From the NCBI GenBank assembly GCA_001602455.1, contig CP012157.1, positions 1,545,733 to 1,609,732 on the forward strand: DNA of 64,000 bases. The letters are read 5' to 3'. Made by a program: the position numbers and the translations under genes. Of the stretch, positions 1,720-44,333 are shown piece by piece. Within the stretch, counting starts at the first letter, position 1. Each line of letters begins with the position of its first letter. The DNA is from Betaproteobacteria bacterium UKL13-2 (GTDB lineage Bacteria; Pseudomonadota; Gammaproteobacteria; Burkholderiales; Usitatibacteraceae). Under the pieces are notes generated by a model. That model saw only the letters and a program-made list of their open reading frames with translations, did not search any database and was not told the DNA's origin.

Positions 1720-2148
1720 ATGACGACAAATTTAGCCATCCCCGTTGGTGTTTCAGGCCAGTCCACACTCATCGTTGGCGATGAGCACACCGCCACGCGG
1801 GTAGGTTCAGGCCGCATCCGCGTTCTCGCGACACCAGTCATGATTAACGTGATTGAGGCTGCGGCGCTGGCCGCTTGCGAAGCCTTGCTACCTGAGGGGC
1901 AGCAGAGCTTGGGGACGCACTTGAATATATCTCATATCGCGGCGACGCCAGTGGGCATGAAAATCGTCGCACGCGCAACCGTCGTGCGGGTCGAAGGCCG
2001 AAAAATTAACTTTGCCATCGAAGTACATGATGAACGCGACCTGATTGGTGAAGGCTCCCATGAGCGCGTTGTGGTCAATGTTGCGAAATTCGATCTACGG
2101 GTGCAGGAGAAGATTCAGTTGCTTACGAATCTAAGAGCCGATAAATAG
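1720..2148 (+). CDS. FlK-like hotdog-fold thioesterase
   Basis: A 142-residue protein of the fluoroacetyl-CoA-thioesterase-like hotdog family. In FlK the catalytic residues are Thr42, Glu50 and His76. Here Thr38 (LATPVM), Glu46 (INVIEAAAL) and His72 (LNISHIA) keep exactly the same spacing (8 and 26 residues). The Ala-Ala-rich helix after the Glu and the THLNISHIAATPVG strand fit the fold. The likely role is hydrolysis of an acyl-CoA in the cytoplasm; the substrate is unknown, and fluoroacetyl-CoA itself is unlikely. The stop codon TAG shares its last base with the first base of the inserted family A element at 2148. Before insertion the frame would have read one further codon (TAT) and then TGA. 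Confidence 0.85.
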   Translation: MTTNLAIPVGVSGQSTLIVGDEHTATRVGSGRIRVLATPVMINVIEAAALAACEALLPEGQQSLGTHLNISHIAATPVGMKIVARATVVRVEGRKINFAIEVHDERDLIGEGSHERVVVNVAKFDLRVQEKIQLLTNLRADK

Positions 2149-2293
2149 GGAACTTCTAAAAACCTACTGCGCGGGCGAATCTGTCAGTTCCCGAGTTGGT
2201 CAAATTCGTCGCCGTACACTGGGCACGTGTTCCGCGTTTGCCCACCCCGTCGCTGCCAACTTCACCCGCTCGCGACGGTTTTTAGAAATACCT
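2148..2293. repeat. Family A non-autonomous element, copy A1 (146 bp, 4-bp duplication AATA)
   Basis: It begins GGGAACTTCTAAAAACC and ends GGTTTTTAGAAATACCT, an inverted pair with a few mismatches. It is flanked by a perfect direct repeat AATA (2144-2147 and 2294-2297), the mark of transposition. Inside are the family's shared blocks: GCGGGCGAATCTGTCAG, the CGTACACTGGGCACGTGTTC centre and CTTCACCCGCTCGCGACGG. The orientation is opposite to copies A2 and A5. It has no coding capacity, so it is a MITE-like element moved in trans. Family B repeat B1 follows directly. Confidence 0.85.
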
Positions 2294-2297
2294 AATA

Positions 2298-2380
2298 TTG
2301 AAACCCGTCTATCGGCGGGCAGTTTGGGGCGTTTTTGTCTGAAAATGCCGGCCGTTATTAGACTTTGCCCGCCCGAACTT
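2298..2380. repeat. Family B palindromic repeat, copy B1
   Basis: Imperfect palindrome containing CGGGCAGTTTGGGGCGTTTTTG and GAAAATGCCGGCCG, with TATTAGACTTT near one end. That end matches copy B4 (AAAGTCTAATA, reverse complement) after rlmB. It lies beside element A1, as B2, B3 and B4 lie beside other A copies. The exact borders are uncertain. Confidence 0.55.
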
Positions 2381-2430
2381 TTACTTGTTGCGGCGTCTAA
2401 TTCCGTCTTTACCAAGGAAAGGAATGCTTG

Positions 2431-3384
2431 ATGACTGATGTCGAACGGGATGCGGTGCTGACGGTCACGATGCTAGCGGCGTTTGCCGATGGAGATAACA
2501 ACGATCTTGAGCGCGCTGAAATTCGCCGCGTCGCCGATGCGGTGGCGGCGCAAACAGCAGTGAATCTGCCGATGCTCTACCAAGCGGTGCTGCTCCAGAA
2601 AGTAAACCTCGATGATGAGGCTCGCAAGATCGTGACCACCGACGGGAAGGCACTTGCCTATGAGTTTGCGGTGGGTGTGTGCCATGCCGATGGCGCATTG
2701 TCCGCGCCAGAAACAGACTTTCTCGCACGGCTACAGGCCGGACTTGGCCTGGCCGCGACCGCAGCCGCAGCGATTACGATACAGTCTGCGGCGCTGGCGA
2801 CGGCACCACTTGCCATCGCCACGGCTGTCGACACGCGATCAACAGTCGAGCCGAAATTCGCAGCCGATATGTCTTCCGCTGCGTTGGACAAAATGATTTT
2901 GAATTACAGCATCTTAAATGGTGCACTGGAGTTGTTACCGCAGAGCATGGCCTCGATGGCGATCATCCCCCTACAAATGAAAATGGTTTACCGCATCGGC
3001 AAGAGCCACGGCTTTGAGTTGGATCGCCGACATATCACCGACTTTTTGGCGACACTCGGCGTCGGCTTGACGTCGCAGTACGTGGAGCAAATCGGGCGAC
3101 GCCTGATCGGTGGGTTGCTCGGCAAGCTCGCGGGTGGTGTCGGCCGGATGGCGGGCGGCGCGGTGACGGGTTCTGCGTTCTCGTTTGCCACCACCTATGC
3201 ACTTGGGCAAGTGGCCAAACGTTACTACGCCGATGGGCGCACGTTATCAACGGCGGCGTTGAAGGAATCGTTTGCCAGTATGCTGAGCGATGCCAGACAG
3301 TTACAGACACAGTACCTGCCAGATATTCGCCAGAAGGCGCAGACGATCAACGTCGCGCAAGTGATGAAAGAGGTGTCAGGCTAG
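2431..3384 (+). CDS. TerB-like / DUF697-type protein
   Basis: A 317-residue protein starting at ATG 2431, chosen over an in-frame TTG one codon earlier because AAAGGAA lies 7 bases upstream. The N-terminal 100 or so residues (MLAAFADGDNNDLERAEIRR, then a later CHADGALSAPE segment) look like a TerB-type helical domain with two acidic, possibly metal-binding loops. The middle is Ala-rich. The C-terminal half (LNYSILNGALELLPQSMAS, a Gly-rich GGLLGKLAGGVGRMAGGAV stretch, then FATTYALGQVAKRYYADG) resembles the YcjF/DUF697 membrane-associated domain. Similar proteins are linked to envelope stress or membrane association, but the function is not established. It stands alone between repeats A1/B1 and the next oxidoreductase gene. 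Confidence 0.72.
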   Translation: MTDVERDAVLTVTMLAAFADGDNNDLERAEIRRVADAVAAQTAVNLPMLYQAVLLQKVNLDDEARKIVTTDGKALAYEFAVGVCHADGALSAPETDFLARLQAGLGLAATAAAAITIQSAALATAPLAIATAVDTRSTVEPKFAADMSSAALDKMILNYSILNGALELLPQSMASMAIIPLQMKMVYRIGKSHGFELDRRHITDFLATLGVGLTSQYVEQIGRRLIGGLLGKLAGGVGRMAGGAVTGSAFSFATTYALGQVAKRYYADGRTLSTAALKESFASMLSDARQLQTQYLPDIRQKAQTINVAQVMKEVSG

Positions 3385-3506
3385 TTTGCCCAATGCCCAA
3401 TGCCTAATGCCTAATGCCGTCACGGTGCCTGCACCGCTGCGCTTCGCTCGAATTTTTGGCAGCGCATCGCGGATAATTGCGCATCAAGACGAGGAGCGAT
3501 TACTTC

Positions 3507-5105
3507 ATGCACACTACGCAGCACAAGTCCTACGACATCGTCGTCATCGGCGGTGGGCACAACGGGCTCGTGTGTGCCGCTTATCTGGCGGGCGCGGGCA
3601 AGTCTGTGCGTGTTCTGGAACAACGCCCCGTACTCGGAGGCGCTGCCGTGACTGAAGAGTTTCATCCGGGATTTCGTAATTCCACGGCGAGCTACACGGT
3701 CAGCCTGCTGAACCCGAAGATCATTCGCGACTTGCGCCTCTACGAACATGGCTTGAAGGTGATCGAACGGCCATTTTCGAACTTTCTGCCACTCTCAGAC
3801 CGACCCAGGGATTACCTTTGCGTCGGGGGTGGGCTTGCCGCAACGCAAGCCGAAGTGGCAAAGTTCTCGAACGACGATGCGGCCCGGCTACCGGGCTACT
3901 ACGCGATGCTCGAACGGGTTGCCAATGTGTTGCGTGCGCTTTTGCTTGAAACGCCGCCCAATGTCGGCGGTGGCATAGCGGACTTGCTGCAGGCGTTGAA
4001 AGTTGGCAAGCGATTCAAGTCCTTGGATATGTCGGCGCGCCGTGACGTGCTCGACCTCCTGACGAAAAGCGCTGGCGATGTGCTCGATCAGTACTTCGCG
4101 TCCGACGCCATTAAAGCCTGTTTCGGTTTCGACAGCGTGGTTGGAAATTTTGCATCACCCTACACGCCGGGATCGGCCTACGTCTTGTTGCACCATGTGT
4201 TCGGCGAGGTGAACGGGAAGCCGGGTATCTGGGGACACGCCGTCGGGGGCATGGGGGCAATTACGCAAGCGATGGCGGCGGAGTGTCGGGCGCGTGGTGT
4301 TGAGTTTTCGGTTGATGCCCCGGTTGAGAAGGTGCTCGTCGAGGGTGCTCGTGCAGCGGGGGTCAAGCTGGCCTCGGGCGAGACGATTTATGCGCGAAAA
4401 ATCGTGTCGAATCTCAACCCAAAGCGACTCTTTTCGGCACTGGTTGACGGTGCGGATGTACCCGATGAGTTTATGCAGCGTGTTTCAGGGTATCGCTGCG
4501 GCTCAGGGACGTTTCGGATGAATGTTGCGCTGTCAGCACTTCCGGTATTTTCCTGTTTGCCACAACCAGGCCCGCACCTTTCGTCAGGCATCATCATGGC
4601 ACCGAGCTTGCGCTACATGGAGCAGGCCTACTTCGATGCTCGAACCCATGGCTGGTCTGCCAATCCGATTGTCGAGGTTCTGATTCCGTCGATTGTTGAC
4701 AGCACGCTCGCGCCAACTGGGCAACACGTCGCCAGTTTGTTCTGCCAGCATGTGTCGCCGGTATTGCCGCGAGGAATGCACTGGGACGACTACCGCGACA
4801 AAGTCGCCGATATCATGATCGGAACGGTCACAAAATTTGCACCGAATTTTGGTGAATCGGTTGTGGCACGCCAGATCCACTCGCCGCTGGATTTAGAGCG
4901 GAAATTTGGGCTGGTTGGCGGCGATATTTTCCACGGCGCCCTCTCGCTGGACCAGCTTTTCTCGGCTCGGCCCGTCATGGGATACGGCAATTACCGCACT
5001 CCCATTGCCGGTCTTTATCAGTGCGGCTCAGGCACTCACCCCGGTGGCGGCGTCACGGGCATCCCGGGGCATAACGCCGCCAGAGAAATCCTGAAAGATA
5101 CCTAG
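3507..5105 (+). CDS. Phytoene-desaturase-like FAD oxidoreductase (PYROXD2-type)
   Basis: A 532-residue protein; ATG 3507 is preceded by GAGGAG with 10-base spacing, better than the TTG thirty bases upstream. The N-terminal dinucleotide fold YDIVVIGGGHNGLVCAAYL (glycines 15-20) is followed by RVLEQRPVLGGAAVTEEFHPG, typical of the phytoene desaturase/amine oxidase superfamily. The C-terminus YQCGSGTHPGGGVTGIPGHN is the family's FAD-binding end motif. No carotenoid genes are nearby, so it is more likely one of the general PYROXD2-like members of unknown substrate than a crtI gene. Its stop codon TAG (5103-5105) is the first part of a family C repeat end. Confidence 0.82.
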   Translation: MHTTQHKSYDIVVIGGGHNGLVCAAYLAGAGKSVRVLEQRPVLGGAAVTEEFHPGFRNSTASYTVSLLNPKIIRDLRLYEHGLKVIERPFSNFLPLSDRPRDYLCVGGGLAATQAEVAKFSNDDAARLPGYYAMLERVANVLRALLLETPPNVGGGIADLLQALKVGKRFKSLDMSARRDVLDLLTKSAGDVLDQYFASDAIKACFGFDSVVGNFASPYTPGSAYVLLHHVFGEVNGKPGIWGHAVGGMGAITQAMAAECRARGVEFSVDAPVEKVLVEGARAAGVKLASGETIYARKIVSNLNPKRLFSALVDGADVPDEFMQRVSGYRCGSGTFRMNVALSALPVFSCLPQPGPHLSSGIIMAPSLRYMEQAYFDARTHGWSANPIVEVLIPSIVDSTLAPTGQHVASLFCQHVSPVLPRGMHWDDYRDKVADIMIGTVTKFAPNFGESVVARQIHSPLDLERKFGLVGGDIFHGALSLDQLFSARPVMGYGNYRTPIAGLYQCGSGTHPGGGVTGIPGHNAAREILKDT

Positions 5106-5128
5106 CCTGACTGCTTCATGGGTCGCCG
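5103..5128. repeat. Family C repeat end overlapping a stop codon
   Basis: TAGCCTGACTGCTTCATGGGTCGCC matches the family C end (GCCTGAATGTTTCATGGGTCGCC at 37413). The stop codon of the preceding oxidoreductase is the TAG of this sequence. The other end of the repeat is not found, so this is a half copy. Confidence 0.5.
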
Positions 5129-5617
5129 CCTGCGTCGAAAAAAACTGCTCGCCTGCTGACCCGCTCTCCCACACACCCACCCACTCACCGACTCGCCCAC
5201 TCGCCCACTTTCAAATGCGCCCCCATCCTAACCTTCCCCGCCGCCGGGGGAAGGAACAGGCCGTGCCTTACCATTCCACTCCCTCCCCTGCGAAGGGGGT
5301 GGGGGGAGATGGGGGAGGGTTGGCGCTCGCTTGAGTTTTTCACGGCGGGCGCGTTTGATCGCGACATATGCGACATATGCGACTGGTGACATGTTCAGAC
5401 TATAGACACTAGACACAATTGGTAGCAAAGTGGTATTGTCTTCAATATGCAACTTTTAATCCCATCAAAAAGGGCTGAAGTTGCGATGAATTGATCAACT
5501 TCCCATCCCAAAAAAAGACTGGCCAAAACCGTACGGCAATACGCAATTGAGCCCGCAGCACTTCGCGGCACTAAATAGCCGAAAACAGCTATCTCATCAA
5601 AAAAGGAGACCACCCAC
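5106..5617. other. Intergenic region, GC-rich repeats and receptor leader
   Basis: 512 bases without a credible gene. The first part holds low-complexity tracts built on CACTCGCCCACT. A G/C-rich hairpin-prone block follows at 5221-5330 (CCGCCGCCGGGGGAAGG and later GAAGGGGGTGGGGGGAGATG), of a kind scattered in many proteobacterial intergenic regions. The last 200 bases are more AT-rich and must carry the promoter and leader of the TonB-dependent receptor gene. AAAGGAGA at 5602-5609 is a strong ribosome binding site for it. Confidence 0.6.
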
Positions 5618-8536
5618 ATGACGTTCAACAGAAAACCCCTCGCCGCTGCAATTTCGCTAGCGCTATTCGGTCTGAGTCCGGCAATCGTCATTGCCCAAAC
5701 CGCACCGGCCGCCCCAGCAAGTCAATCGGCCGCCGACGCCAAGAAAGCGGAAGACGCAAAAAAAGCCGCTGCCGCCAAGAAGCCTGAACCAGAAGCGATT
5801 GTGGTCACGGGTATTCGTGCCTCGCTTGAGCGTTCCATTCAAACCAAACAAGACGCTGATACCAACGTCGAAGTGGTCTCCGCCGAAGACGTGGGCAAGA
5901 TGCCGGATAAAAACATCGCCGACGCACTCTCGCGCCTGACTGGTGTGAACGTCCAGTACGGCGGAGCGCTGGCGATGGACGAAGCGGAACGCGTCGCGAT
6001 TCGCGGCACCAGCCCAAACTTGAATTTAGTAACTCTCAACGGCCATGCACTGTCATCGGGTGACTGGCACGTTGGTGACCAAGCCGGTTCAGGTCGTAGC
6101 GTTGGTTTTGGTTTGTTGCCGTCACAGTTGATCGGCCAGGCAATCGTGTACAAAACCGGCCGCGCTGACATCACCGAAGGTGGTATCGCTGGTACGGTTG
6201 ACATCATCACACGCAAGCCGTTGGACTTCCGCCAGCAAGTCACTGGCGAAGCTTCGGTTGGCATGGTTTACGCCGATTTGCCAAAGAAAAGTGACCCACA
6301 AGTCAGCGGCTTGATCGCTTGGAAGAGCGACGACAAGACCTTTGGTGTGATGGTGCAAGGATTCAGCGAAAAACGTCATCTACGTCGTGACGGCCAGGAG
6401 ATTTTTGGCTACAACTACATCTCCGTGGCCCAAGCCAATGCCTCCGGCAACCCCGCATTGATCGCTGCAGCGCAGGCCGCCGCAACCACCAGCACACCAA
6501 CACAAACGAACGTACGGATGCCGGGCAGCTTGAACTCCGCCATGTTTGAAGGTGTACGTGAGCGCAGTGGTGGCTACTTCGGCGCGCAGTGGAAGCCAAC
6601 CGGCACCTTGGATTTGAACTTCAGCGCGTTCAAATCTGAACTCAAAGCCGACAACTACAACTCCAGCGGCTATGGTTTGCCGTTCACGTTGTTGAGCAAC
6701 GGTTGGCAGATTCAAAACGGCGTGGTGGAAAACGGCGTACTGGTGGGCGCATCACTCGTGCGTCCTGCTACCGCTCCGATAACCCAGCAAGTCGTGGGTT
6801 TCCAGTTTGACCACTTCCTGCGCCAAGGTGCCAAGTCCAAGTCAAACTTTTATGACTTGGACTTTAAGTGGGAAGCAACTGACAAACTCTCCTTCAAAGG
6901 TCGTGTGGGTAGTACCGAAGGTAGTGGTGTCACCAATTCCCAGCCGAGTATCGTGTTAGGCGTGATTAATCCCAATATCACCTACCGGATCAACGCTGGC
7001 AGTGATGCGGTTGATTACTCCATCCTCACCGCCGCAGGCGGCAACGTTAACCTCAATGCCACATCAAGTTTCGTGCAGTTGAGCAATCAAGGCGCGTCGG
7101 TTAACTCCAACGACAAAGAAAAATACGCCCATATTGATGGTGAGTACAAACTCGACGGCGGTATGTTCCGCAACATCAAGTTTGGTGCGCGTACTGGAGA
7201 CCACAAGCGCACTTATGATGTGGTCAACCCGCGTTGGAACGCGCAGTACACCGCCGCTGGCGCACTGGTCTCCCCGTCTCCGTTTATTTCGGTTACGGGT
7301 GGTTTGTTAGTGACCAATATCGTCGGCGCCATTCCTGTTCCGGCTGGCAGCTATCCAGCTAACTGGGCGTCCGGTGTCAGCGGCAACTTCCCGCGTAGCA
7401 TGATGCGTTACGACACCAGCCAGATGCAAAACTTGACCAACCAATACGTCAACTGGGACCCGGTGCTGGGCAAAAACTGGTCGGCAGGCTTCGAGGTTAA
7501 GGAAAACAACGATTCCTTCTACCTTATGACTGAATTTGACGTCAACGACAAACTGTCAGGCAACGTGGGTTTACGCGCCGCTACCACAGAGTTGAAGTCG
7601 ACCTCCTATCAGGCGCTTACCAGTGGTACGGGTGCCGGGCAATGCGTACCGTTGCAGCCTTGCAGCGTGCCGAATGCCATTACCACGTCGTCACTTGCGA
7701 CCTATGTTCCACAAGTGGTGCAGACCAAACACACCGACTATCTGCCGAGCTTGAACCTGCGCTGGGAGATTGAACCAAAACTGATCGGTCGCCTTGGCAT
7801 CACCAAGACACTGGGACGCGCGAACTACAACGAACTCGCGGGTGCGGTTAGTTTGAACAACACGCTGCTGACTGGGACCTCGGGCAATCCACGTTTGGCA
7901 CCAACCACATCGACGAACGTTGACGCATCACTGGCGTATTACTTTGCCCGCCGTGCGTATGTGTCTGGTGCGGTGTTTGCGCAGGACATCAAAGACTACG
8001 TGAAGCCGGGATCGTCGAACGTTGAGTACTTCAACACCTCGACCAACACCTTCTCGACCTATTTGGTGACTTCTCGTGTTGCAGTGGACGCGAAGATCCA
8101 CGGTCTTGAGTTGGCTGGTGAAATGCCGATCGGTGCTGGTTTTGGTGTTTTAGCGAACGCCACCTATGTTGATGGCAAGGACGCAGATGACCAGCCGTTC
8201 CTTGGCACTTCTAAGGTGACCTATAACCTTCAGGGCTACTATGAAGACGAGAAGTTCAGCGGCCGTCTTGCTTGGAACTGGCGTTCGGACTACGCGATCG
8301 GTCTGCTGGCGAACAAGCCGGGTGTAACGACTGTAGTCGGTACGCATCGTTATGTATCCGGCGGCAGCTTGTCAGCGTCGTTGTCGTACAAGATCCTGCC
8401 AAACGTCAGCATTCATCTTGACGGCAACAACCTGCTCAACCCTGTTCGCAGAACTTACTACATCAATGAATCTGCACCGGGCTACGCACATGAATTTGGC
8501 CGTCAGTACTTCCTGAACGTGCGTGCAAAGTTCTAA
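5618..8536 (+). CDS. TonB-dependent outer-membrane receptor, Caulobacter type
   Basis: A 972-residue outer-membrane receptor. Residues 1-26 form a signal peptide (SLALFGLSPAIVIAQ). Then comes an Ala/Lys-rich linker (AKKAEDAKKAAAAKK) before the plug domain, which has EAIVVTGIRASLERS, VVSAEDVGKMPDKNIADALS and LTGVNVQYGG. These are hallmarks of the large Caulobacter-type TonB receptor subfamily, which often takes up plant- or polymer-derived carbohydrates. The plug/barrel transition has GRADITEGGIAGTVDIITRKP. The C-terminus GRQYFLNVRAKF ends in aromatic Phe, as expected for barrel insertion by Bam. No substrate gene is adjacent. A strong terminator follows at 8565, so it is probably monocistronic. 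Confidence 0.93.
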   Translation: MTFNRKPLAAAISLALFGLSPAIVIAQTAPAAPASQSAADAKKAEDAKKAAAAKKPEPEAIVVTGIRASLERSIQTKQDADTNVEVVSAEDVGKMPDKNIADALSRLTGVNVQYGGALAMDEAERVAIRGTSPNLNLVTLNGHALSSGDWHVGDQAGSGRSVGFGLLPSQLIGQAIVYKTGRADITEGGIAGTVDIITRKPLDFRQQVTGEASVGMVYADLPKKSDPQVSGLIAWKSDDKTFGVMVQGFSEKRHLRRDGQEIFGYNYISVAQANASGNPALIAAAQAAATTSTPTQTNVRMPGSLNSAMFEGVRERSGGYFGAQWKPTGTLDLNFSAFKSELKADNYNSSGYGLPFTLLSNGWQIQNGVVENGVLVGASLVRPATAPITQQVVGFQFDHFLRQGAKSKSNFYDLDFKWEATDKLSFKGRVGSTEGSGVTNSQPSIVLGVINPNITYRINAGSDAVDYSILTAAGGNVNLNATSSFVQLSNQGASVNSNDKEKYAHIDGEYKLDGGMFRNIKFGARTGDHKRTYDVVNPRWNAQYTAAGALVSPSPFISVTGGLLVTNIVGAIPVPAGSYPANWASGVSGNFPRSMMRYDTSQMQNLTNQYVNWDPVLGKNWSAGFEVKENNDSFYLMTEFDVNDKLSGNVGLRAATTELKSTSYQALTSGTGAGQCVPLQPCSVPNAITTSSLATYVPQVVQTKHTDYLPSLNLRWEIEPKLIGRLGITKTLGRANYNELAGAVSLNNTLLTGTSGNPRLAPTTSTNVDASLAYYFARRAYVSGAVFAQDIKDYVKPGSSNVEYFNTSTNTFSTYLVTSRVAVDAKIHGLELAGEMPIGAGFGVLANATYVDGKDADDQPFLGTSKVTYNLQGYYEDEKFSGRLAWNWRSDYAIGLLANKPGVTTVVGTHRYVSGGSLSASLSYKILPNVSIHLDGNNLLNPVRRTYYINESAPGYAHEFGRQYFLNVRAKF

Positions 8537-8564
8537 GCCGCATCAACGTATCAACGCAACAAAG

Positions 8565-8597
8565 AACGGCCGCTGGTGCAACCCAGCGGCCGTTTTT
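8565..8597 (+). terminator. Rho-independent terminator after the TonB-dependent receptor gene
   Basis: Stem AACGGCCGCTGG pairs with CCAGCGGCCGTT around a six-base loop and is followed by a T run, 29 bases after the receptor stop codon. Confidence 0.88.
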
Positions 8598-8637
8598 ACG
8601 TTCGGACTCGACTGATTCGGCGCATCGCGAGTATCTG

Positions 8638-8672
8638 GCTTGAACATTTCACGGGGCGTGTTCGAAGCGGTG
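8638..8672. repeat. Partial family C repeat end
   Basis: GCTTGAACATTTCACGGGGC followed by GTGTTCGAAGCGG matches the left part of the family C copies at 9893 and 36617 (GCCTGAACATTTCACGGGGGCGAGTTCGAAAGCGGG). Only this end is recognisable. Confidence 0.45.
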
Positions 8673-8772
8673 AGTGGGGGAGCTATTTTTACCTAACTGA
8701 TCCCAGCATCAGCCCAGTACACGAGATCGCACGTCGTGGTCGATTGTTTTTGCCAATAACATCCTGCGTGGA

Positions 8773-9207: not shown

Positions 9208-9281
9208 AATCTTTTAAGTGCAAATCGAACTGAGTTTTGAAAAATTTTTGATTTGTTGACTGAAGCTTGATTGAACCTTGT

Positions 9282-12604: not shown

Positions 12605-12605
12605 C

Positions 12606-16837: not shown

Positions 16838-17259
16838 GGCTGTAACCCGGTTGTCGTGCCATCGTTGGGACGTGGGACGTACACAGTGAGCGTGGCAAAT
16901 TTTCGTTTCGCATCATTGTCGTCGCGCCGCGCAACCGAGATTTCAACTTTACGAAAATCGACGTTTGGTGTTTCGTTTGTTGTTGTGGTCCAACGAAAAC
17001 TGATACCCGCCATATCAGACGAGCCCGTTTCGACACCCACCGATGGGAACAGCCGGCGCGCAGTCAACTCGGCGGCACGATTCTGTGCCACCCATGTCGC
17101 GTAGGTTCGCATGATCGACTCTTCGGCTGTGGTTGTTGCCATCGCGGTGGCACGCATGGCCGTAGCAAGCGCAATGGAGATGATCGCCAGCGCGATCAAG
17201 ACTTCAATGAGCGTGAAGCCTAGCGATCTCGCCGTCGAATCAAATCTGTTGGTGTCCAT
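16834..17259 (-). CDS. gspI: Type II secretion minor pseudopilin GspI
   Basis: A 141-residue minor pseudopilin started at ATG 17259, 16 bases after the gspH stop; further upstream the frame would run into gspH. The leader MDTNRFDSTARSLG is cleaved before FTLIEVLIALAIISIALATA, with Glu at +5. The C-terminal part has RAAELTARRLFPSVGVETG, typical of GspI (TYAxWVAxNR-type sequence just before it). It is the core of the tip complex with GspJ and GspK. Confidence 0.9.
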   Translation of the reverse strand: MDTNRFDSTARSLGFTLIEVLIALAIISIALATAMRATAMATTTAEESIMRTYATWVAQNRAAELTARRLFPSVGVETGSSDMAGISFRWTTTTNETPNVDFRKVEISVARRDDNDAKRKFATLTVYVPRPNDGTTTGLQP

Positions 17260-17275: not shown

Positions 17276-17878
17276 TTAGCGTCGCAGCGACACATTACCA
17301 AGTGCGTCGCCATCGATGGTTCGCGAATACTGCGCCGAATAAACGCGCAGCGAAAATGGCGCCCCCACACCCGTCGGTAAAAAGGTCACGATCTTGTCAC
17401 CTTGTTCGGCGCTGGTATTGGTGCCGGTACCGGTATTGGCCATCGAACGATTGCCCTCTGCGAGACGCTCCGGTGCCGTTATTTCCGCCCGAATGCCGTC
17501 ACGCCATCCGCGGATGGGTAACTTTTCAGCAGATGCGGTGCGCCATATGGGTTCGACACTGTTGGGATCACGTTCTAAGAATTCAATGCCCGCGTCAGTC
17601 AAGCGCATTGCGATGGGATATCCCGAAAAGACCGCTTGATCCCGCGTTCTTTCGACCAGTCGCATCAAGCGCTCAGCATCGAGTTTGACGCGCTGCTCGT
17701 CGCTGATGAAAAGGTTTGAGGTGGTGAGCGAGAGTGCAATGCCGATAATCACAACGACAATCAGAATTTCAACCAACGTAAATCCGCGCGAGGGAGCTTC
17801 TAAAAACCGTCGCGAGCGGGTGAAGTTGGCAGTGAGGAGCGGACACGTACCCAGTGTACGGCGACGAATTTGACACAC
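17276..17878 (-). CDS. gspH: Type II secretion pseudopilin GspH, 5' end rebuilt by an inserted element
   Basis: The mature protein is clear: a prepilin cleavage site PSRG/FTLVEILIVVVIIG, Glu at +5, then FLERDPNSVEPIW and the GspH-like C-terminus. The leader is abnormal. The codons just before the cleavage site (RRFLEAP) are the end of family A element A2, inserted at 17792-17925. No good ribosome binding site is seen. The frame stays open through the element, so the start could be GTG 17878 (leader about 32 residues), ATG 17965 (about 61 residues) or further up. I give 17878 as a working start with low certainty. The distance from gspG is about 280 bases, whereas elsewhere in gspD-N neighbours mostly overlap or lie within about 45 bases. 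Confidence 0.75.
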   Translation of the reverse strand: MCQIRRRTLGTCPLLTANFTRSRRFLEAPSRGFTLVEILIVVVIIGIALSLTTSNLFISDEQRVKLDAERLMRLVERTRDQAVFSGYPIAMRLTDAGIEFLERDPNSVEPIWRTASAEKLPIRGWRDGIRAEITAPERLAEGNRSMANTGTGTNTSAEQGDKIVTFLPTGVGAPFSLRVYSAQYSRTIDGDALGNVSLRR

Positions 17879-17925
17879 GCGGGAGCTGACAGATTCGCCC
17901 GCGCAGTAGGTTTTTAGAGGTTCCC
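17792..17925. repeat. Family A non-autonomous element, copy A2 (134 bp), inside the gspH 5' region
   Basis: It begins GGGAGCTTCTAAAAACCGTC and ends GTTTTTAGAGGTTCCC. Flanks are GCGA (17788-17791) and GCCA (17926-17929), a 4-bp duplication with one mismatch. The internal blocks GCGAGCGGGTGAAGTTGGCAG, GGACACGTACCCAGTGTACG and GATTCGCCCGCGCAGTAGG are shared with A5. On the minus strand its last codons are in frame with gspH. Confidence 0.85.
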
Positions 17926-17929
17926 GCCA

Positions 17930-18002
17930 GTAAAACTCTCCGTTTGGCGGGCATTTTCGAGGCATTTTGCTTGGAAACGCCCGTCGATAAAGGAGTTTCG
18001 CT
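17930..18002. repeat. Family B palindromic repeat, copy B2
   Basis: Imperfect palindrome: AAACTC near the left end pairs with GAGTTT near the right end, and GGCGGGCATTTTC pairs loosely with GGAAACGCCCG. It sits exactly between elements A2 and A3. GATAAAGGAGTTT is shared with copy B3. Confidence 0.6.
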
Positions 18003-18006
18003 GTTT

Positions 18007-18140
18007 GGGAACTTCTCGAAACCGTCGCGAGCGGGCGAAGTTCGTGCCGAGGGGTTTGGCAAACACGGGACACGTACCCAGTGTACGGCGAGCACCGCAG
18101 GCGCGAAATTCGCCCACGCAGCAGGTTTATAGAAGTGCCC
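18007..18140. repeat. Family A non-autonomous element, copy A3 (134 bp, duplication GTTT)
   Basis: It begins GGGAACTTCTCGAAACCGTC and ends TTTATAGAAGTGCCC, flanked by perfect GTTT direct repeats (18003-18006, 18141-18144). The centre (GGGACACGTACCCAGTGTAC then GGCGAGCACCGCAGG) is nearly identical to A4 and differs from A2/A5, so there are at least two subfamilies. It lies in the gspG-gspH gap, 16 bases from the gspG stop codon. Confidence 0.87.
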
Positions 18141-18156
18141 GTTTGTTCTGGGTCGC

Positions 18157-34453: not shown

Positions 34454-34506
34454 AACGGCATTATCCTAGAATTACCGCCGCGGGTCGCCTAGCCTGACCG
34501 TTTTTT

Positions 34507-34640
34507 GGGCACTTCTCGAAACCGTCGCGAGCGGGCGAAGTTCGTGCCGACGGGTTTGGCAAACACGGGACACGTACCCAGTGTACGGCGAGCACCGCAG
34601 GCGCGAAATTCGCCCACGCAGCAGGTTTGTAGAAATTCCC
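34507..34640. repeat. Family A non-autonomous element, copy A4 (134 bp, duplication TTTT)
   Basis: It begins GGGCACTTCTCGAAACCGTC and ends GTTTGTAGAAATTCCC, flanked by TTTT on both sides (34503-34506 and 34641-34644). The interior is nearly the same as A3 over its whole length (GCGGGCGAAGTTCGTGCCGA, CACGGGACACGTACCCAGTG). It sits in the divergent region between the hypothetical gene and ettA, next to a family C end (TAGCCTGACC at 34490). Confidence 0.87.
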
Positions 34641-34644
34641 TTTT

Positions 34645-34712
34645 AGGAAAGTCGCCATTCGGCGGTCGTTTTCAGCCGTTTTGCGCTGAAAACGCCCGTG
34701 GATAAAGGAGTT
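34645..34712. repeat. Family B palindromic repeat, copy B3
   Basis: GGCGGTCGTTTTCAGC pairs with GCTGAAAACGCCCG to form a hairpin. GTGGATAAAGGAGTTTT is shared with B2. It follows element A4 directly, as in the other A-B pairs. Confidence 0.6.
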
Positions 34713-34843
34713 TTAATTTTTATCCTCGACCGGGTGTAGGAGCTTGGGTGTGGGGGGTAGGGGGTTTGTACTGCTAGATCGGCGCGAGTCACCGCTGACT
34801 GGCAAAATAGCGCCTCACGGAAATAACTGATTGAAAGCGGCAA

Positions 34844-36835: not shown

Positions 36836-36870
36836 CCAACGTTGCGCTCATTTTTTGAGTTGTACAAAAA

Positions 36871-36900: not shown

Positions 36901-36932
36901 TTCGCTGCGGTGTAACGGTTTAGACGCTTAAG

Positions 36933-37193: not shown

Positions 37194-37221
37194 TTGAAGT
37201 TCCTTTCAATTAAAAAGATAA

Positions 37222-37380
37222 TCACGCTTTAGCGCATTTGGCGTTGATCTCACCTATGTCGCCCTTCTTGCTTGTACTGCTACCGCTTTTGTAGAACCAG
37301 TGCTGCAGTGACCGAGTAACGCGCCATTTGCGAATTGGTTTACTCGCGATGTCCTTCCCCTTTTGCCTTGCTTTCGACAT
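37222..37380 (-). CDS. Possible very small basic protein
   Basis: A 52-residue frame starting at ATG 37380, with AGGGA upstream. The protein is very basic (SKARQKGKDIASKPIRKWRV) with Cys near the end. A longer frame up to 37473 exists but runs into the family C repeat. No family is recognised. It could be genuine or chance; downstream is the Ala/Lys-rich protein gene. Confidence 0.3.
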   Translation of the reverse strand: MSKARQKGKDIASKPIRKWRVTRSLQHWFYKSGSSTSKKGDIGEINAKCAKA

Positions 37381-37412
37381 TCCTGCGTCCCTACGTTTTG
37401 CCACTAAATCTA

Positions 37413-37519
37413 GCCTGAATGTTTCATGGGTCGCCCGTTGCTTAGAAGGACGTTGCCTCGGAATGATTGGCAAACTAACTTAGATCAGCCCTGTTTCGCG
37501 GCTCGCAAAATTTTCAGGC
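37413..37519. repeat. Family C palindromic repeat, 107-bp copy abutting the prpF stop codon
   Basis: It begins GCCTGAATGTTTCATGGGTC and ends AAAATTTTCAGGC; both sides read CTA/TAG just outside. The first 70 bases align with the minus strand of the 36617-36835 copy. The last base of the repeat is the G (minus strand) of the prpF stop codon. Confidence 0.7.
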
Positions 37520-38700
37520 TAGCCAATATTCCCCGGAATGTAGACCCATCCGGCCATTAAACGACGGGCGCTGCGATTCATCACCGCTTTGGTCACACGC
37601 CAACCACCGCTCACGTCGCTCGCCTCGGCGCTAATTGGCATGACGCCGGATGTATGTCCGATTCTTATTGGCATTCCTGACTGCTTCTTGATGACAACAC
37701 GGCTGACGAGAGTGCCGGGAACCGCTGCCGCCACCGCGAGCGCGATAGCGCCTGATCCGGGTATTGCGTGGTGTACTTTGCCTAAAGAAACCATGCGGGC
37801 AATAACATCGATTTCGTTCTGGCTAATGTGTTTGCCGTCTAAAGCGGTATACGACGTCGGCGCGGCGATCAGAGCCAAGGTTGGTCGATGCAGACGACTC
37901 GTGACGGCATCCTTTGGCGACTTTGCCAATCCCATGGCGACGGCCGCTGCCGCTCGCACGGCCTCAAGACGCGTGAGTGTCTTGGTGTCAGCATCCAATT
38001 TTGCTTTGTCCTCGGTCCCGGTGAGTCCGAGCGCATCCGCCAATACGAAGACAGTCGGATTCCCCGCATCGAGCATCGTGGCCTCGATGTGCTCGTTTTC
38101 TCCGAAGGTTAGGGTGTCGTAAGGATTGCCCGTCGGAAATAGACCACCATGGCACATATTTTCAGGTGTTGTGAGCTCCTCAGCGGCGGGGTCGAGAAAC
38201 TCCATCGTAATGCGCGCTGATGGGAAGGCGACGCCATCCTCGACGAAATCGCCGTATTCAACGACTTCTCCACCGTGCATCGGTACGTGGGCGATGACTT
38301 TCTTGCCAAGACTGGCTTGCCAAATTCGTACTGTTGCCGTTCCTTCAAAGGGGGCATCACACAGGTCTTCGCTGATGGCAAACGGCGCGACTGCGACCGA
38401 CAAATTGCCAAAGTTGCCTGACCAATCGATCACTGGGCGGTCAACTGCCACCATGCCGCACATGTAGTCGACATCGCAATCTTCGCGATAAGATTTTGAT
38501 ACCAACACCACCTTGTTAGTCGTTGAACTGGCATCGCCGAGTCCATCGATCTGCTTACCATAGGGGTCTGGACTTCCCAGTAGGCGGAGCAGGATTTGGT
38601 CACGTTTTTCGCTGTCTGCTGGAAGGTCCTCTGCTTTTATGAAAATACCCTTACTGGTGCCGCCACGCATATAGACGGCGGGGATTCTGCGTTGCTTCAT
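37519..38700 (-). CDS. prpF: PrpF-type 2-methylaconitate cis-trans isomerase
   Basis: A 393-residue protein of the diaminopimelate-epimerase-like fold. It shows AVYMRGGTSKGIFIKAEDLP, LLGSPDPYGKQIDGLGDASS, VDYMCGMVAVDRPVIDWSGN and the C-terminal GWRVTKAVMNRSARRLMAGW, all matching PrpF of the 2-methylcitrate propionate pathway. The related 4-oxalomesaconate tautomerase GalD is less similar in these motifs. PrpF is normally next to acnD/prpC; these are absent here, and upstream lies only a truncated Bug receptor gene. So the protein may serve another tricarboxylate. ATG 38700 with GAGGAT upstream is the start. Confidence 0.87.
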   Translation of the reverse strand: MKQRRIPAVYMRGGTSKGIFIKAEDLPADSEKRDQILLRLLGSPDPYGKQIDGLGDASSTTNKVVLVSKSYREDCDVDYMCGMVAVDRPVIDWSGNFGNLSVAVAPFAISEDLCDAPFEGTATVRIWQASLGKKVIAHVPMHGGEVVEYGDFVEDGVAFPSARITMEFLDPAAEELTTPENMCHGGLFPTGNPYDTLTFGENEHIEATMLDAGNPTVFVLADALGLTGTEDKAKLDADTKTLTRLEAVRAAAAVAMGLAKSPKDAVTSRLHRPTLALIAAPTSYTALDGKHISQNEIDVIARMVSLGKVHHAIPGSGAIALAVAAAVPGTLVSRVVIKKQSGMPIRIGHTSGVMPISAEASDVSGGWRVTKAVMNRSARRLMAGWVYIPGNIG

Positions 38701-38760
38701 CAACCTATCCTCAAACTTTAATGGCGAAGTGCGTATCTGTATCGGTATCGATGAGCGTGC

Positions 38761-38931
38761 CTAAATTAAGCGGTCAGCGATCAGTCTCGCCATCGCGTCG
38801 GTGCCGCCGCCCGCGGGAAAGTCGGCCATCAGTTTGATTGGCTTGGTTGGCCACGTTTGCGCAAACACAGCGGGAGCAACACCGGCTGCGGCGAGCGCTG
38901 CCGAATGCAATAAAAACTTGCGGCGATTCAT
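38761..38931 (-). pseudogene. Truncated Bug/TctC-type tripartite tricarboxylate transporter receptor
   Basis: Only 56 codons remain of a gene that should encode about 320 residues. The signal peptide (MNRRKFLLHSAALAAAGVAP, AVFAQ) and the first conserved strand WPTKPIKLMADFPAGGGTDA are unmistakable for this periplasmic solute-binding family, and then the frame ends at MARLIADRLI. The rest is missing: prpF begins 60 bases later. The likely cause is a deletion between the Bug gene and whatever preceded prpF. Confidence 0.8.
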
Positions 38932-39837
38932 AACCTCTCCTCGAAATTTGCTTGTTTCTGACCGGCCAGATTGGCGATCAGCTTTTTTATGATTGAACAA
39001 ATTCTGATTTTTGGGAAACCCAAGTGCTAATTTAACTTAGTCACGGGCGATTTACATCAGCGAACAGCTTGTTTTGCGCGACCACTTTACGGCCAAAGAA
39101 TCGCCAGATATCGTGCGGCGCAGCAAAGGAGTTCGGGCTGTCTGTATCTCAGAATACTTTAGACGCGACGCGCAAGGCGGAGCCGGGTAACAGCGCGCCC
39201 AGCGTCACCAAAAGGTGCAGTGCAGCAAGAGAGAGCAAAAACAAATTCGGAACAGTTGTTTTCTTCGGATTACCGATGGCGAAAAACGTCGGGAAGGTCG
39301 GCTAAAGGCCGGTTGTGTGTTTCATATGGATGCTGGTCGATCACTGTTTTGACGTGGTGTTCGGAAACGTACCGAGACCAGTACCCGCTGAGTGCGATAT
39401 TCATCCTCATGGATGCGCGATGCATATCTGCTTGCCACTCACGGAGGTGCGGTGACGTCATGCGTCTGGGAAGCAGTAGGATGCTAAAAAATCATTGGTC
39501 GTCTCTCATATTTTTATTTTTTGAAACGAAGACGCTCGCTGTTCCTCATCACATACGAGCGCGGCTTGTTGCTTCTGCCTTGTTAGGCGAATCGAATTTT
39601 CGTCAAGTACCGACTGAAATTCATGCGCCAACTTAACGTCGATTGTCGGCACGTCGCCACATCCTAGCAAAGACAATCCCCCTTGTGTTCCCTACCAGCA
39701 CTTAAGAAATCTTAGAAAACGACGAAAACAGTTTAGTCAACTAAATGTAAGCCGCCGGTCTCGCCGCTGGAACAAATCCGTATCGCGAAAAACGGACGCG
39801 TCTCCGCTGAGATCGGGCTATAGGGGAGCTAGACGCA
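38932..39837. other. Gene-poor decayed region
   Basis: About 900 bases without a confident gene. On the minus strand, 39047-39121 can be read as an in-frame tail HDIWRFFGRKVVAQNKLFAD ending in a stop, preceded by an in-frame stop at about 39153. This could be the decayed 3' end of an esterase-like gene that once preceded the Bug receptor gene, but this is weak. The part from 39300 to 39640 is less GC-rich and has only poor frames. A 14-base palindrome lies at 39732. Confidence 0.4.
39732..39745. promoter_or_regulatory. Palindromic site upstream of the small metzincin-like lipoprotein gene
   Basis: TTTAGTCAACTAAA: 6-bp perfect arms with a 2-base centre, about 93 bases before the lipoprotein start. 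The size suits a dimeric repressor. No regulator gene is adjacent, so this is only a candidate. Confidence 0.3.
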
Positions 39838-40203
39838 ATGAGGTATATCAAAAAATCTTCCGCCGCAATGTTCTTGGCGAGCTTGATCTTCGTTTTGATG
39901 ACGGGATGCACATCGGTCCGGGGGACAGCATACTCAACGCCATTCTTCACCTACACACCTGCTACGCTCGCGGCACCGGTTAACTGCACAAATGGCGAGT
40001 ACACGGTGACCATCCGACTGACTACCGCAGTTGATGCTGTTCGTGAATGCAGTCGCGAAGGCAAAGTCGCGATGGCATGCTTTAACCCATACAACGGCGG
40101 TGGTGTGATTGTGAGCGCGGCACCAAAAGACTGGAATGACCGCATCGCACTTGCTACCATCGGCCATGAAGTAATGCATCTTTGTGGTGCTGTACACGAA
40201 TGA
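39838..40203 (+). CDS. Small lipoprotein ending in a metzincin-like HExxHxxGxxH motif
   Basis: A 121-residue protein with strong ribosome site AGGGGAG eight bases before ATG. The signal peptide ends in lipobox MTGC (Cys24). The mature part has Cys50, Cys71 and Cys81 and the segment ACFNPYNGGGVIVSAAP. The last residues are GHEVMHLCGAVHE: His110, Glu111, His114, Gly117 and His120 match the full metzincin zinc signature HExxHxxGxxH, but the protein stops one residue later. So no Met-turn or C-terminal subdomain exists. It may be a minimal zinc-binding protein or a small peptidase-like fold. No family name is recognised. It is flanked by decayed DNA. Confidence 0.75.
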   Translation: MRYIKKSSAAMFLASLIFVLMTGCTSVRGTAYSTPFFTYTPATLAAPVNCTNGEYTVTIRLTTAVDAVRECSREGKVAMACFNPYNGGGVIVSAAPKDWNDRIALATIGHEVMHLCGAVHE

Positions 40204-40460
40204 TTGAACGATTCGTTTGCGGGGATGAGGCTGGTGCAATTTAGCGGGCGCCTCGTCACGCTCGCGTTGCGCTCAGCAGAGCAGTTTGCTCAGCCAAACC
40301 CGACGCTCGCGTTGCTCGCAATGGTTGATGGAACCGGTCACCTCCGGCGACCCCGCTGCGGCGGCTCGTCGCGTCACGTTGTTCGCTCCGAGCATCGCCG
40401 TCAGCTTTCGAGCTCCTTGCGCGAATGCCGCAGGGCATTCGCTCCCGGTCACAAAAAATG

Positions 40461-40485
40461 AAAAAAGCCGCTTTCGCGGCTTGAT
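40461..40485 (-). terminator. Terminator after tRNA-Leu
   Basis: On the minus strand: AAGCCGC, loop GAAA, GCGGCTT followed by a T run, directly past the 3' end of the tRNA-Leu gene. Confidence 0.85.
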
Positions 40486-40492
40486 TTCATTT

Positions 40493-40579
40493 TGGTGCCC
40501 AGGAAGGGACTCGAACCCCCACAGTGTTGCCACCGCTAGGACCTGAACCTAGTGCGTCTACCAATTCCGCCACCTGGGC
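40493..40579 (-). tRNA. tRNA-Leu (anticodon CAG)
   Basis: An 87-base class II tRNA with encoded CCA. The acceptor GCCCAGG pairs with CCTGGGC. The D arm contains TGGTAGACGCA. The anticodon stem CTAGG/CCTAG holds loop TTCAGGT (anticodon CAG, reading CTG). A long variable arm follows (CGGTGGCAACACTG) and the T arm is GGGGGTTCGAGTCCC. It is divergent from rnr. Confidence 0.96.
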
Positions 40580-40719
40580 CTCTTCTTGCACAATTACTCG
40601 TGAACGTATCAGGTATGGCTCGCTCACCGGAACAACATTCTTTCGACGCTAGAAATACCCAAGTGCTACTGGGACTATCCGCGTAAAATGAGGGCGAATA
40701 ATAGCCAAAAGCCCATCAA

Positions 40720-43476
40720 TTGTCCAATAAAAAGCCAAAAACAACCAAAGCCCAACAAAAGCGCAGCGCCCATGCGGTGATTGCGAAGCAGCCTGTCCGC
40801 ACACGCAAACCGACTGACGCAGAAGTGGCTTTTGCGTCACCCGTGCCGACCATGCCAGCGAATGCTGGCAATGCGCCCAACCGGGGCAGCGATCCGCACG
40901 CCACACGCGAAGCAGAGAAGTACGAACACCCGATTCCGTCGCGTGAACTCATCATGGATGTGCTCACCCAAGCTGGTGTGCCGATGATGGAAGACGAAAT
41001 CGCCGCAGCGCTGGAGATCAGCGAAGCCGAAATTGATGGTTTTACCCGCCGCCTGAACGCGATGGAACGCGACGGGCAGGTGATGAAGAACCGCCGCGGC
41101 GCGATTGGCCTCTCCGAAAAGATGGACCTGATCGCTGGGCGGGTGCAAGGGCATCCGGATGGTTTTGGTTTCTTGGTGCCAGACGACAAGTCGGAAGATT
41201 TATTCCTAGGCCCAAAGCAAATGCAAAAAGTGCTCGACGGTGATCGCGTGCTGGTGCGTGAGATTGGTGTCGATCGTCGCGGGCGTCGTGAAGCATCGAT
41301 TATCGAGATACTAGAACACAAAAACACACTTGTCGTCGGACGCTTGTTTGAAGAACACGGTGTGCTGTTTGTGGTTGCTGAAAATAAACGTATTAGTCAG
41401 GACATCCTCGTCGAGCCTGGTTATGGCATGAAGGCAGCACCTGGCCAAGTGGTCATGGTCGAGCTGGTCGCACAGCCATCGAAGAATTCCGAACCGGTTG
41501 CGCGTGTTATCGAAGTGTTGGGTAACTATGCCGACCCCGGTATGGAAATCGAGATTGCGTTACGCAAACACGATCTCCCGTATGAGTGGTCCGATGAAAT
41601 TCTCGCGCTCGAAAAGAAGCTGCCGAAAAAAGTCACGGCAAAGGAATGTGAAGGACGGCAGGATCTTCGAGCACTGCCGTTTGTGACGATTGATGGTGAG
41701 ACGGCAAAAGATTTCGACGATGCGGTATACGCCGAAAAGCAGGGCAAGGGCTACAAGCTGTATGTCGCGATTGCGGATGTTTCGCACTACGTAAAACAAG
41801 GTAACGCAATCGACCGCGAAGCACGATTGCGTGGCAACTCAGTGTATTTCCCGCGTCGTGTGATCCCGATGTTGCCCGAGGCGTTGTCCAACGAAATGTG
41901 TTCGTTGAATCCGCGCGTCGATCGTCTGGCGCTGGTTTGCGAAATGCAAATTTCGGCACAGGGGGAGGTGAAGCGTTACGATTTTTATGAGGCGGTGTTT
42001 CACTCCCAGCAGCGTCTGACTTACACCAAGGTCGCGAAATACCTCTACGAAAACGAAACCGTTTACGCAAATGAGCACGGCATCGAAGAGAAGTTGCTGC
42101 CGCACATCCGCCATCTCGATGAGGTGTTCCAGATATTGCTGGCGGCGCGTCACAAACGCGGCGCGATTGACTTCGAATCGTCGGAAACAGAAATGCGTTT
42201 CACCGAAGATGGCAAGATTTCAGAAATCGTCCCGTCGAAACGTAACGACGCACATCGGTTGATTGAAGAATGTATGTTGGCCGCAAACGTCTCGACGGCA
42301 AATTTCCTCATCGAACACGAACATCCTGCGTTGTACCGTGTGCATGAAGGGCCGAACGAAGAGAAACTCGCACAAGTGCGCGGCATGCTGAAAGATTTTG
42401 GTTTGTCTCTTGGCGGCGGCAACGATCCGAGCCCATCTGACTACGCGGCCTTGATTGTCAAGATTAAAGGACGCCCGGATGAACCTTTACTCAACACCGT
42501 GTTGCTGCGCTCGTTACGCCAAGCGGTGTATTCGCCGGAGAATGTCGGGCATTTTGGTTTGTCATATGAGGCGTATACGCACTTCACTTCGCCGATCCGT
42601 CGCTATCCTGATCTGCTGACGCACCGTGCGATTAAAGCGATTCTGCGCAACGATGTCTATGATCCAAAAGAGTCGTGGGATGCGTTGGGGCAACAGTGTT
42701 CGATGACCGAACGCCGTGCCGACGACGCCACCCGCGACGTTGTGGCGTGGCTCAAGTGTTACTACATGAAGGATCGCCTCGGCGAGACCTTTGCCGGTAC
42801 GATTTCATCGGTCACGAGTTTTGGTATTTTTGTGGCGCTCGATGATGTGTATGTCGAAGGCTTGGTGCACATCTCGGATCTCGGCCAAGACTATTTCAAG
42901 TACGACAAAGACCGGCATCAGATTGTTGGTGAACGTACCCGCAAGAAATATCAGTTAGCCGACCGCGTGAACATCAAAGTCGTACGTGTTGATATTGAGA
43001 CGTCCAAGATTGACTTCACACTCGCGGCTGAGCGCATTCGTTCGCACGCAGAGATTGCGGCGATGGACGCACCTGAATACAAGCCCGGTCTCGTTTCTAG
43101 CGCGCCCAAAGTCGCGCCGGCGTTACAGACGCGACAGGCAGGGCGTGCATCGATGGCGCCGACAATCTCAAGCAAGCTGATCGAGCCGCCCGGCGCAGCA
43201 CCGGCGGCAACGAAGAAAATCGTCATGACGGTATCGAGTGCGAACCCGCCCACGACGCCGCTGGCAGGGCTCGATCTGGGCAAACCCGAATCGCGTTACG
43301 CCAAGGCTGGTCGGCAGACCAAATCGGCTAACGCACCGAAGCCAATGGCACCGAAAGCGAAGAAGCCCTCGGCTGGAAAATCGCCTGCGGCACTATCGCC
43401 TTCCGGCGTCAAGCCGAAGGGTGGCGCGAAGGCGGGTGCGCGAAAATCTAACGCAAAGTCCCGTCAAAAATCATGA
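40720..43476 (+). CDS. rnr: Ribonuclease R
   Basis: A 918-residue 3'-5' exoribonuclease. An N-terminal helix-turn-helix-like region ([20 protein letters not shown]) precedes cold-shock domains ([15 protein letters not shown]). The RNB catalytic core has [20 protein letters not shown], with the acidic metal ligands, and the later [20 protein letters not shown]. The S1 domain is [21 protein letters not shown] long Lys/Pro/Ala-rich tail (about residues 800-918) makes it about 100 residues longer than E. coli RNase R and probably binds structured RNA or ribosomes. The only fitting start is TTG 40720 (SNKKPK), with no obvious ribosome site. It overlaps rlmB by 4 bases. Confidence 0.94.
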
Positions 43477-44222
43477 AGCCCCAAGTGTTGTTTGGATTCC
43501 ACGCTGTGGCATCGCGCCTGAAGGCGCGTGCCGATACCGTTGAAGAATTATTCATCAGCGCCACGCGCGAAGAGCGCAGTGATGCCAGGCTCGACCGTCT
43601 GCTTGCGATCGCCAAAGACAAAAACGTCCGGGTGTTGGCGGTGGACAACAAGCGCCTCGATGGCATGACCGGCAATGCGCGCCATCAGGGGGTCGTCGCA
43701 ATGGCGCGCCCGTTTCAGTTGCCGCAGTTTGTGGATGACGTGCTGGAGACGGTTGAGGGCCCGCCGCTGCTGCTCGTGCTGGATGGGGTGACCGACCCAC
43801 ACAATCTTGGCGCGTGTTTGCGTGTTGCCGATGCTGCTGGTGCACATGCCGTCATTGCACCAAAGGATCGTTCGGTCGGCTTAAACGCAACCGTCATGAA
43901 GGTCGCCAGCGGTGCCGGTGAGAATATGCCGTATATCGTCGTGACCAACTTGGCGCGCACGCTGCGCGAGTTGAAAGAGCGCAACATCTGGGTCATTGGC
44001 GCGGATGAGGGGGGGGGAAGTAGCCTGTACGAATCAAAACTGGCCGGCCCATTGGCGTGGGTACTCGGTGCCGAAGGCGAGGGCTTGCGACGCCTCACCC
44101 GCGAGACCTGCGATCAGATCGTATCCATCCCCATGTTGGGGTCGGTTGAGAGCCTGAACGTGTCCGTCGCCTCGGGGGTGTGTTTGTTTGAATCGCGTCG
44201 ACAGCGATTCGGGAGCTTCTAA
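43473..44222 (+). CDS. rlmB: 23S rRNA 2'-O-ribose methyltransferase RlmB
   Basis: A 249-residue SPOUT-class enzyme that methylates G2251 of 23S rRNA. The N-terminal substrate domain starts [20 protein letters not shown]. The catalytic knot has [40 protein letters not shown] and [21 protein letters not shown] run of nine G (44009-44017) encodes part of DEGGGSS. The last codons (GSF stop) come from element A5, inserted after ATTC. Before insertion the reading would have been F-T-K-V-stop, so the insertion swaps three residues for two. It overlaps rnr by 4 bases. Confidence 0.95.
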
Positions 44223-44333
44223 AAACCGTCGCGAGCGGGTGAAGTTGGCAGTGAGGAGCGGACACGTACCCAGTGTACGGCGAGCACCGGAGCTGACAGA
44301 TTCGCCCGCGCAGTAGGTTTATAGAAGTTCCCA
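44211..44333. repeat. Family A non-autonomous element, copy A5 (123 bp, duplication ATTC), overlapping the rlmB 3' end
   Basis: It begins GGGAGCTTCTAAAAACCGTC and ends TTTATAGAAGTTCCC, with perfect ATTC direct repeats (44207-44210, 44334-44337). It is very close to A2, apart from an internal deletion between GGCGA and GGAGCTGACAG. It carries the rlmB stop codon in its terminal repeat. Confidence 0.9.

Follow-up and report, generated by a model that had tools for sequence, protein, structure and literature searches.

The genome of Betaproteobacteria bacterium UKL13-2, a single contig of 3,387,087 bp, carries over a hundred gene-less mini-transposons, or miniature inverted-repeat transposable elements (MITEs), five of which lie in the 64,000-nucleotide stretch analysed here (the window; genome G000, contig C1, positions 1545733–1609732). 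Most of these elements sit a few base pairs from a separate 66-bp palindromic repeat, termed the core, and the family very probably arose from a burst of IS5-type MITEs aimed at this older, genus-specific repeat, which resembles repetitive extragenic palindromic (REP) sequences. In the proposed mechanism, the transposase of an insertion sequence (IS), supplied in trans, would bind 17-bp ends common to the IS and the MITEs and would move the MITEs with a 4-bp staggered cut, the core being the preferred target and insertion taking place 3–4 bp outside the palindrome. The gap of 7–8 bp between MITE and core would then follow from the 3–4 bp spacer plus the duplicated 4 bp, and MITE–core–MITE triplets would form because both sides of a core are open to insertion.

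The core is a two-fold symmetric repeat with two 33-bp arms in inverted orientation and an approximate sequence of AAA(C/G)TCnnnnATnG(A/G)CGGGC(A/G)TTTTCAGGC. At a score cut-off of 17 or more, a core was located within 5–9 bp of 86 of the 99 MITEs with both ends readable, and the gap was exactly 7 or 8 bp in 81 of 87 flanks, corresponding to the 4-bp duplication plus 3–4 bp. Either end of the MITE may face the core (left in 49 cases, right in 38), and pairs of MITEs ~80 bp apart consist of two MITEs flanking one core. A sample of 20 spaced 20-kb stretches (400 kb) gave 62 listed hits representing 31 core sites, which extrapolates to ~260 cores per genome; with this number, random insertion within 5–9 bp of a core is expected at a rate of ~0.1 per cent.

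All five window copies exhibit this arrangement (no strand is assigned to the cores). Copy 1 (2148–2293, 146 bp, minus strand relative to the 134-bp type) lies between AATA duplications at 2144–2147 and 2294–2297, with a core 7 bp away at 2301–2366. Copy 2 (17792–17925, 134 bp, plus strand) has the flanks GCGA (17788–17791) and GCCA (17926–17929), which differ by one mismatch, and copy 3 (18007–18140, 134 bp, plus strand) is bordered by GTTT at 18003–18006 and 18141–18144; the core between them (17933–17998) is 7 bp from copy 2 and 8 bp from copy 3, and a MITE-free core occupies the equivalent place in the genomes G007, G008 and G009. Copy 4 (34507–34640, 134 bp, plus strand) is flanked by TTTT at 34503–34506 and 34641–34644 and has a core 7 bp away at 34648–34713. 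Copy 5 (44211–44332, 122 bp, plus strand) lies between ATTC at 44207–44210 and 44333–44336, with a core 7 bp away at 44340–44405; in G007 and G009 this interval holds a core and no MITE. A first-pass annotation of the window, made from the letters alone, had reported the five copies with these same four-base flanks, and every copy and flank was recovered, the right boundary of copy 5 moving by one base from the 44333 given there. The shared terminal sequence and its inverse that it described are present at all ten ends, which match GGGAACTTCTNNAAACC at 12–15 of 15 scored positions. The 66-bp repeat that lies 7–8 bp from every window copy had been missed, and this target specificity is the most informative part of the system. 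A scan of the window with Rfam at gathering scores returned one tRNA.

The extent of the family was examined by querying the genome with three window copies and scoring the best 40 candidates per search, which after merging gave at least 112 distinct places in 88 clusters. Local blastn in these 88 regions, taken with 1.5 kb on each side, revealed 113 copies, 102 of them near full length; the figure of 113 is a lower bound, because the 400-kb sample held a few copies outside that list. The terminal 17-mer, with up to two mismatches, occurs 227 times in the genome (108 + 119), compared with 1 + 0 occurrences of a reversed control. Among the approximately 100 listed places of the 17-mer, 16 fall outside the 88 clusters, and paired ends were found at 10 of these 16, eight of the pairs spanning 134–150 bp, one 344 bp and one 64 bp. 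Both 17-bp ends matched at 11 or more of 15 positions in 99 of the 102 near-full copies. The lengths of these elements are 122–147 bp in 97 cases and 120 and 161 bp in the other two; the two subfamilies proposed for the window are roughly right, but three length classes predominate genome-wide, namely 134 bp (54 copies), 122 bp (21) and 145–146 bp (19). The elements are short and carry terminal inverted repeats, and their non-coding character is judged from length alone. According to a crude caller of open reading frames (ORFs), 49 of the 99 MITE–core units lie between co-directional genes, 26 between convergent genes and 9 between divergent genes, with 12 inside a called ORF and 3 at an edge.

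Four-base target duplications were perfect in 57 of the 99 copies and had at most one mismatch in 73. When the right flanks were shuffled 300 times, the mean number of perfect duplications was 2.66 and the maximum was 8. Other duplication lengths gave a weaker signal (17 perfect against 4.6 for length 3; 3 against 0.3 for length 5), and A or T accounts for 180 of the 228 bases in the duplicated 4-mers. An empty site was identified within the same genome, where AGTAAACA stands directly before a core at 1323625 and its paralogue at 2342212 contains a MITE flanked on each side by AACA.

Empty sites were also seen at orthologous loci of sister species. The interval of copy 5, between the SpoU-methylase and M16-peptidase genes, contains a core in G007 (score 21 of 26) and G009 (24 of 26), a weak core in G003 (18) and none in G011 (15), and inspection by eye of the interval in these four genomes showed no MITE. 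The interval of copies 2 and 3, between gspG and gspH, contains a core in G007 (23), G009 (24) and G008 (25) and weak cores in G012 (18) and G011 (17), with none at 17 in G003; a matching 17-bp end was not found in the scanned stretch of these six genomes, and other extra DNA is present in that of G009. Because empty sites exist both within the genome and at orthologous loci, the elements have transposed. The first-pass annotation had called them non-autonomous elements that transposed with 4-bp duplications, which agrees with the duplications across the genome, the paralogous empty site and the MITE-free orthologous places found for two of the four window insertion loci. It had also named two observations that would count against it, copies lacking duplications genome-wide and a repeat ancestral at all loci; the 57 perfect duplications favour it, though 42 of the 99 copies have no perfect one, and MITE-free orthologous places were seen where examined.

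A candidate for the driver was found outside the window, as the first-pass annotation had expected, in the genomes G007, G010 and G009; the IS5-like gene at 62101–63060 of the window has other ends and was excluded on that ground. At two loci of G009 (L212 and L218), a transposase lies between ends of the MITE kind. In the G009 copy, a 261-aa ORF matches both the NCBIfam IS5 model NF033581 (146.3 bits against a cut-off of 140) and the Pfam family DDE_Tnp_1 (PF01609; 89.5 bits against a cut-off of 23), and a search of 13 genomes of the genus with the transposase gave matches in six, including five copies at 92% in the UKL13-2 genome itself. The G007 IS is 1307 bp long and has the ends GGGAACTTCTCGAAACC and GGGAACTTCTAAAAACC, both variants of which occur in a single MITE copy at 16873. 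The G010 IS is 1238 bp long, is flanked by TTTT on both sides and lies 6 bp from a degenerate core (score 16), and the G009 IS has a core (score 21) 8 bp away. The MITE ends are common to the IS elements of G007 and G010, themselves not intact, and the IS elements exhibit in part the same target habit as the MITEs. We infer that an IS5-family transposase moved the MITEs by acting in trans on their ends. The core would be read either by this transposase or by a host protein bound to the core, two possibilities that look alike on the present data.

The five IS copies of the UKL13-2 genome lie in duplicated segments at 134, 139, 146, 151 and 2507 kb with their left end 8–9 bp from a core, and their right end was not found in the DNA examined there. 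Across 131–165 kb and 2.50–2.52 Mb (L243, L244 and L245), four of these five IS5-type relics occupy repeated segments within ~20 kb and the fifth lies at 2.5 Mb; the relics share the coding DNA downstream of them, and the copies reflect segmental duplication. A second IS5 type in this genome (33% identical, five places) showed no matching ends in the two of its five loci that were scanned. In the relatives, further types of element that share the 17-bp ends adjoin a core at L208, L215, L216, L217 (twice), L211 and L213 and lie without a core at the cut-off at L204, L205, L206, L207, L210 and L214. One such type, found in G009 at L210, L211, L213 and L215, has an interior beginning with TCAAAATTGCCGTCATT, and cores adjoin it at L211, L213 and L215. 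In G011 (L204:5577–5877), a stop-ridden stretch that by eye has the look of an IS3-type OrfA stands directly before the same terminal 17-mer.

Several observations weigh against a burst driven by this IS and directed at the core. Thirteen of the 99 MITEs lack a core at the cut-off, some having a displaced or degenerate core and some none, and 42 have no perfect 4-bp duplication. Among the IS elements, the core beside the G010 IS scores 16 and falls under the cut-off of 17, the duplication of the G009 IS matches at only 3 of 4 bases, and the one side of the G007 IS that can be read lacks a core (score 11), its other side being a contig edge. None of the copies examined was an intact driver: the reading frames are split in G007 and G010, that of G009 is short as well as split, and the five copies in the UKL13-2 genome are truncated on the right. 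Comparison by eye of the IS and the MITEs revealed no common interior beyond the 17-bp ends. These last two points, together with the IS3-like relic of G011 abutting the same 17-mer, would also fit MITEs moved by a different transposase with similar ends rather than by the named IS5-family element. We regard this alternative as rather unlikely, given that both 17-bp ends match those of the G007 IS, that a 4-bp duplication flanks the G010 IS and that the IS relics of the UKL13-2 genome show the same spacing from cores.

The distribution of cores was examined with a sequence-only model built from 63 cores. In the window, the model detected the four cores and nothing else at an expectation value (E) of 1 or less. 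All four adjoin MITEs, and the notion that cores occur only with MITEs proved wrong genome-wide: there were at least 150 hits, and the matches listed comprised 90 sites, 47 adjacent to a MITE and 43 free, although at least two of the free sites (2518554 and 2223499) adjoin a terminal fragment. Seventeen 'free' core loci were taken, one of which was off target. The 400-kb sample contained 15 MITE matches, 11 of them near complete, and an adjacent core was present for 10 of these 11 and for one partial copy; 11 of the 31 sampled cores were occupied by a MITE and 20 were free. Free cores may be undercounted, because the model was trained mainly on cores from the MITE side.

The core model matched all 13 genomes of the genus and none of 28 others of the family and order (E ≤ 0.001, strict filters, among the matches listed). 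The MITE query matched 8 of the 41 genomes at E ≤ 0.001, six of them within the genus, including UKL13-2 itself and one weak match; the two matches outside the genus were short and weak. Seven genomes of the genus thus have cores and no MITE match at this threshold. As cores are present in all 13 genomes and a MITE match in only six, the cores are older than this family of MITEs; in sister species they occupy the same interval at two loci, and they precede the insertions. A composite mobile unit, in the form of a tailed MITE or a MITE–core–MITE transposon, would be consistent with the fixed spacing, the near-constant association and the four of four MITE-adjoining cores in the window. However, each MITE of the triplet formed by window copies 2 and 3 has its own duplication, the cores show no duplication of their own, free cores are frequent in both surveys described above, and cores occur in the seven genomes without a MITE match and at MITE-free orthologous places. 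The composite unit is largely refuted by the orthologous sites and is highly improbable. It is equally hard to credit that the MITEs simply favour AT-rich or structured spots by gene ends that the core happens to mark, because a spacing of exactly 7 or 8 bp is too precise for such a preference, even though the duplicated 4-mers are A/T-rich and the units are mostly intergenic.

The core itself is an abundant palindromic extragenic repeat, with 31 sites in the 400-kb sample. Taken singly, cores fold better than shuffled sequences (89 cores, mean z −3.6), but RNAalifold predicted no pair, no covariation between the arms was detected except at the centre, and chimeric halves gave the same mean folding energy as real cores. 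A selected RNA structure was rejected on these grounds; the core is palindromic in consensus, with no sign of selection on pairing. Two further identities were discarded: a transposon with its own duplication, as direct repeats were not longer than in shuffles (100 cores), and a RAYT-borne REP, as no core with a score of 19 or more was present at the 12 Y1_Tnp loci examined among 38 matches. Within the arms, positions 8–9, which are left out of the score used for collecting cores, read CC, AG, TT or AA in 295 of 316 arms (158 distinct cores from UKL13-2 and relatives). For these two positions, mutual information amounts to 1.13 bits in one arm and 1.20 bits in the other, compared with ~0.5 bits or less for the next within-arm pairs. 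The rule holds in 89 of 94 arms in the relatives alone, against 39.6 expected if the positions were independent, and in 162 of 176 arms in the UKL13-2 genome, where the left and right words look independent. A tentative and rather doubtful extension of these observations is that the core might be a functional genus-wide site made of two independent 33-bp half-sites with a selected four-state dinucleotide, read by a DNA-binding or recombination protein, and that the IS5-family transposase might land at a fixed distance via the site or the protein, which would amount to a natural system for safe-site insertion next to gene ends.

MITE insertion provides the stop codon of two window genes. The final base of the ORF at 1720–2148 is also the first base of copy 1 (2148). 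The stop of the SpoU-type methylase ORF (43473–44222) lies inside copy 5 (44211–44222), and the G007 counterpart has another tail. The window also contains an IstB-type IS21 gene at 49285–50061, in addition to the unrelated IS5-like transposase at 62101–63060 mentioned above.

The known systems are compared here as they appear in the available parts of the cited papers. Prokaryotic MITEs are described as short, gene-less elements with inverted ends and a target duplication, present in many copies, mostly intergenic and moved in trans (PMC10969869). The present family resembles them in length, lack of genes, ends, duplication, copy number and mostly intergenic placement, but it targets one separate repeat class at a fixed distance, whereas only an intergenic preference is described there. 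Correia elements of Neisseria are MITEs of 100–155 bp in hundreds of copies, for which IS1106 of the IS5 family is the suspected driver (PMC3898611). Both families are thus betaproteobacterial MITEs of similar size with a suspected IS5-family driver; however, Correia elements have 26-bp ends and a TA duplication, in contrast to the 17-bp GGG...CCC ends, 4-bp duplication and core target found here.

REP-targeting IS elements choose repetitive palindromes (Tobes and Pareja 2006, PMC1525189), and ISNm1106, of the IS5 family, is listed in Table 2 of that work with a loose 'near or adjacent' REP association (4/7 and 7/14). A palindromic repeat is the insertion target in both cases, but Type 1 elements break the REP at one point, whereas the core stays whole, with insertion 3–4 bp outside it, and the elements that use it are MITEs, present in roughly a hundred copies. 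Like REP dimers and the GTAG and CGTC families (PMC3733652), the core is palindromic, mostly extragenic, present at more than 100 per genome by extrapolation and confined here to one genus; unlike REP dimers, it consists of two 33-bp arms without covariation and with an independent two-base word per arm, and it was absent from the Y1-transposase loci examined. The titles, abstracts and parts of papers returned by literature searches describe no MITE at a fixed distance from a separate palindrome. MITEs and REP-targeting IS elements are already known, and the landing of about a hundred copies at a fixed distance is a strong variant of this theme; the element belongs to an established kind and chooses its target with unusual strictness.

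The family provides roughly a hundred natural insertions, credited to a single small type of DDE transposase, that lie at a consistent distance from a repeat that is easy to recognise. The way in which targets are chosen can therefore be deduced from sequence and could be tested with a short cassette. The analysis also brings to light a genus-specific repeat with a strict two-base rule in its half-sites. These findings suggest a way for MITEs to accumulate in a genome while doing little harm, namely by inserting next to gene ends.

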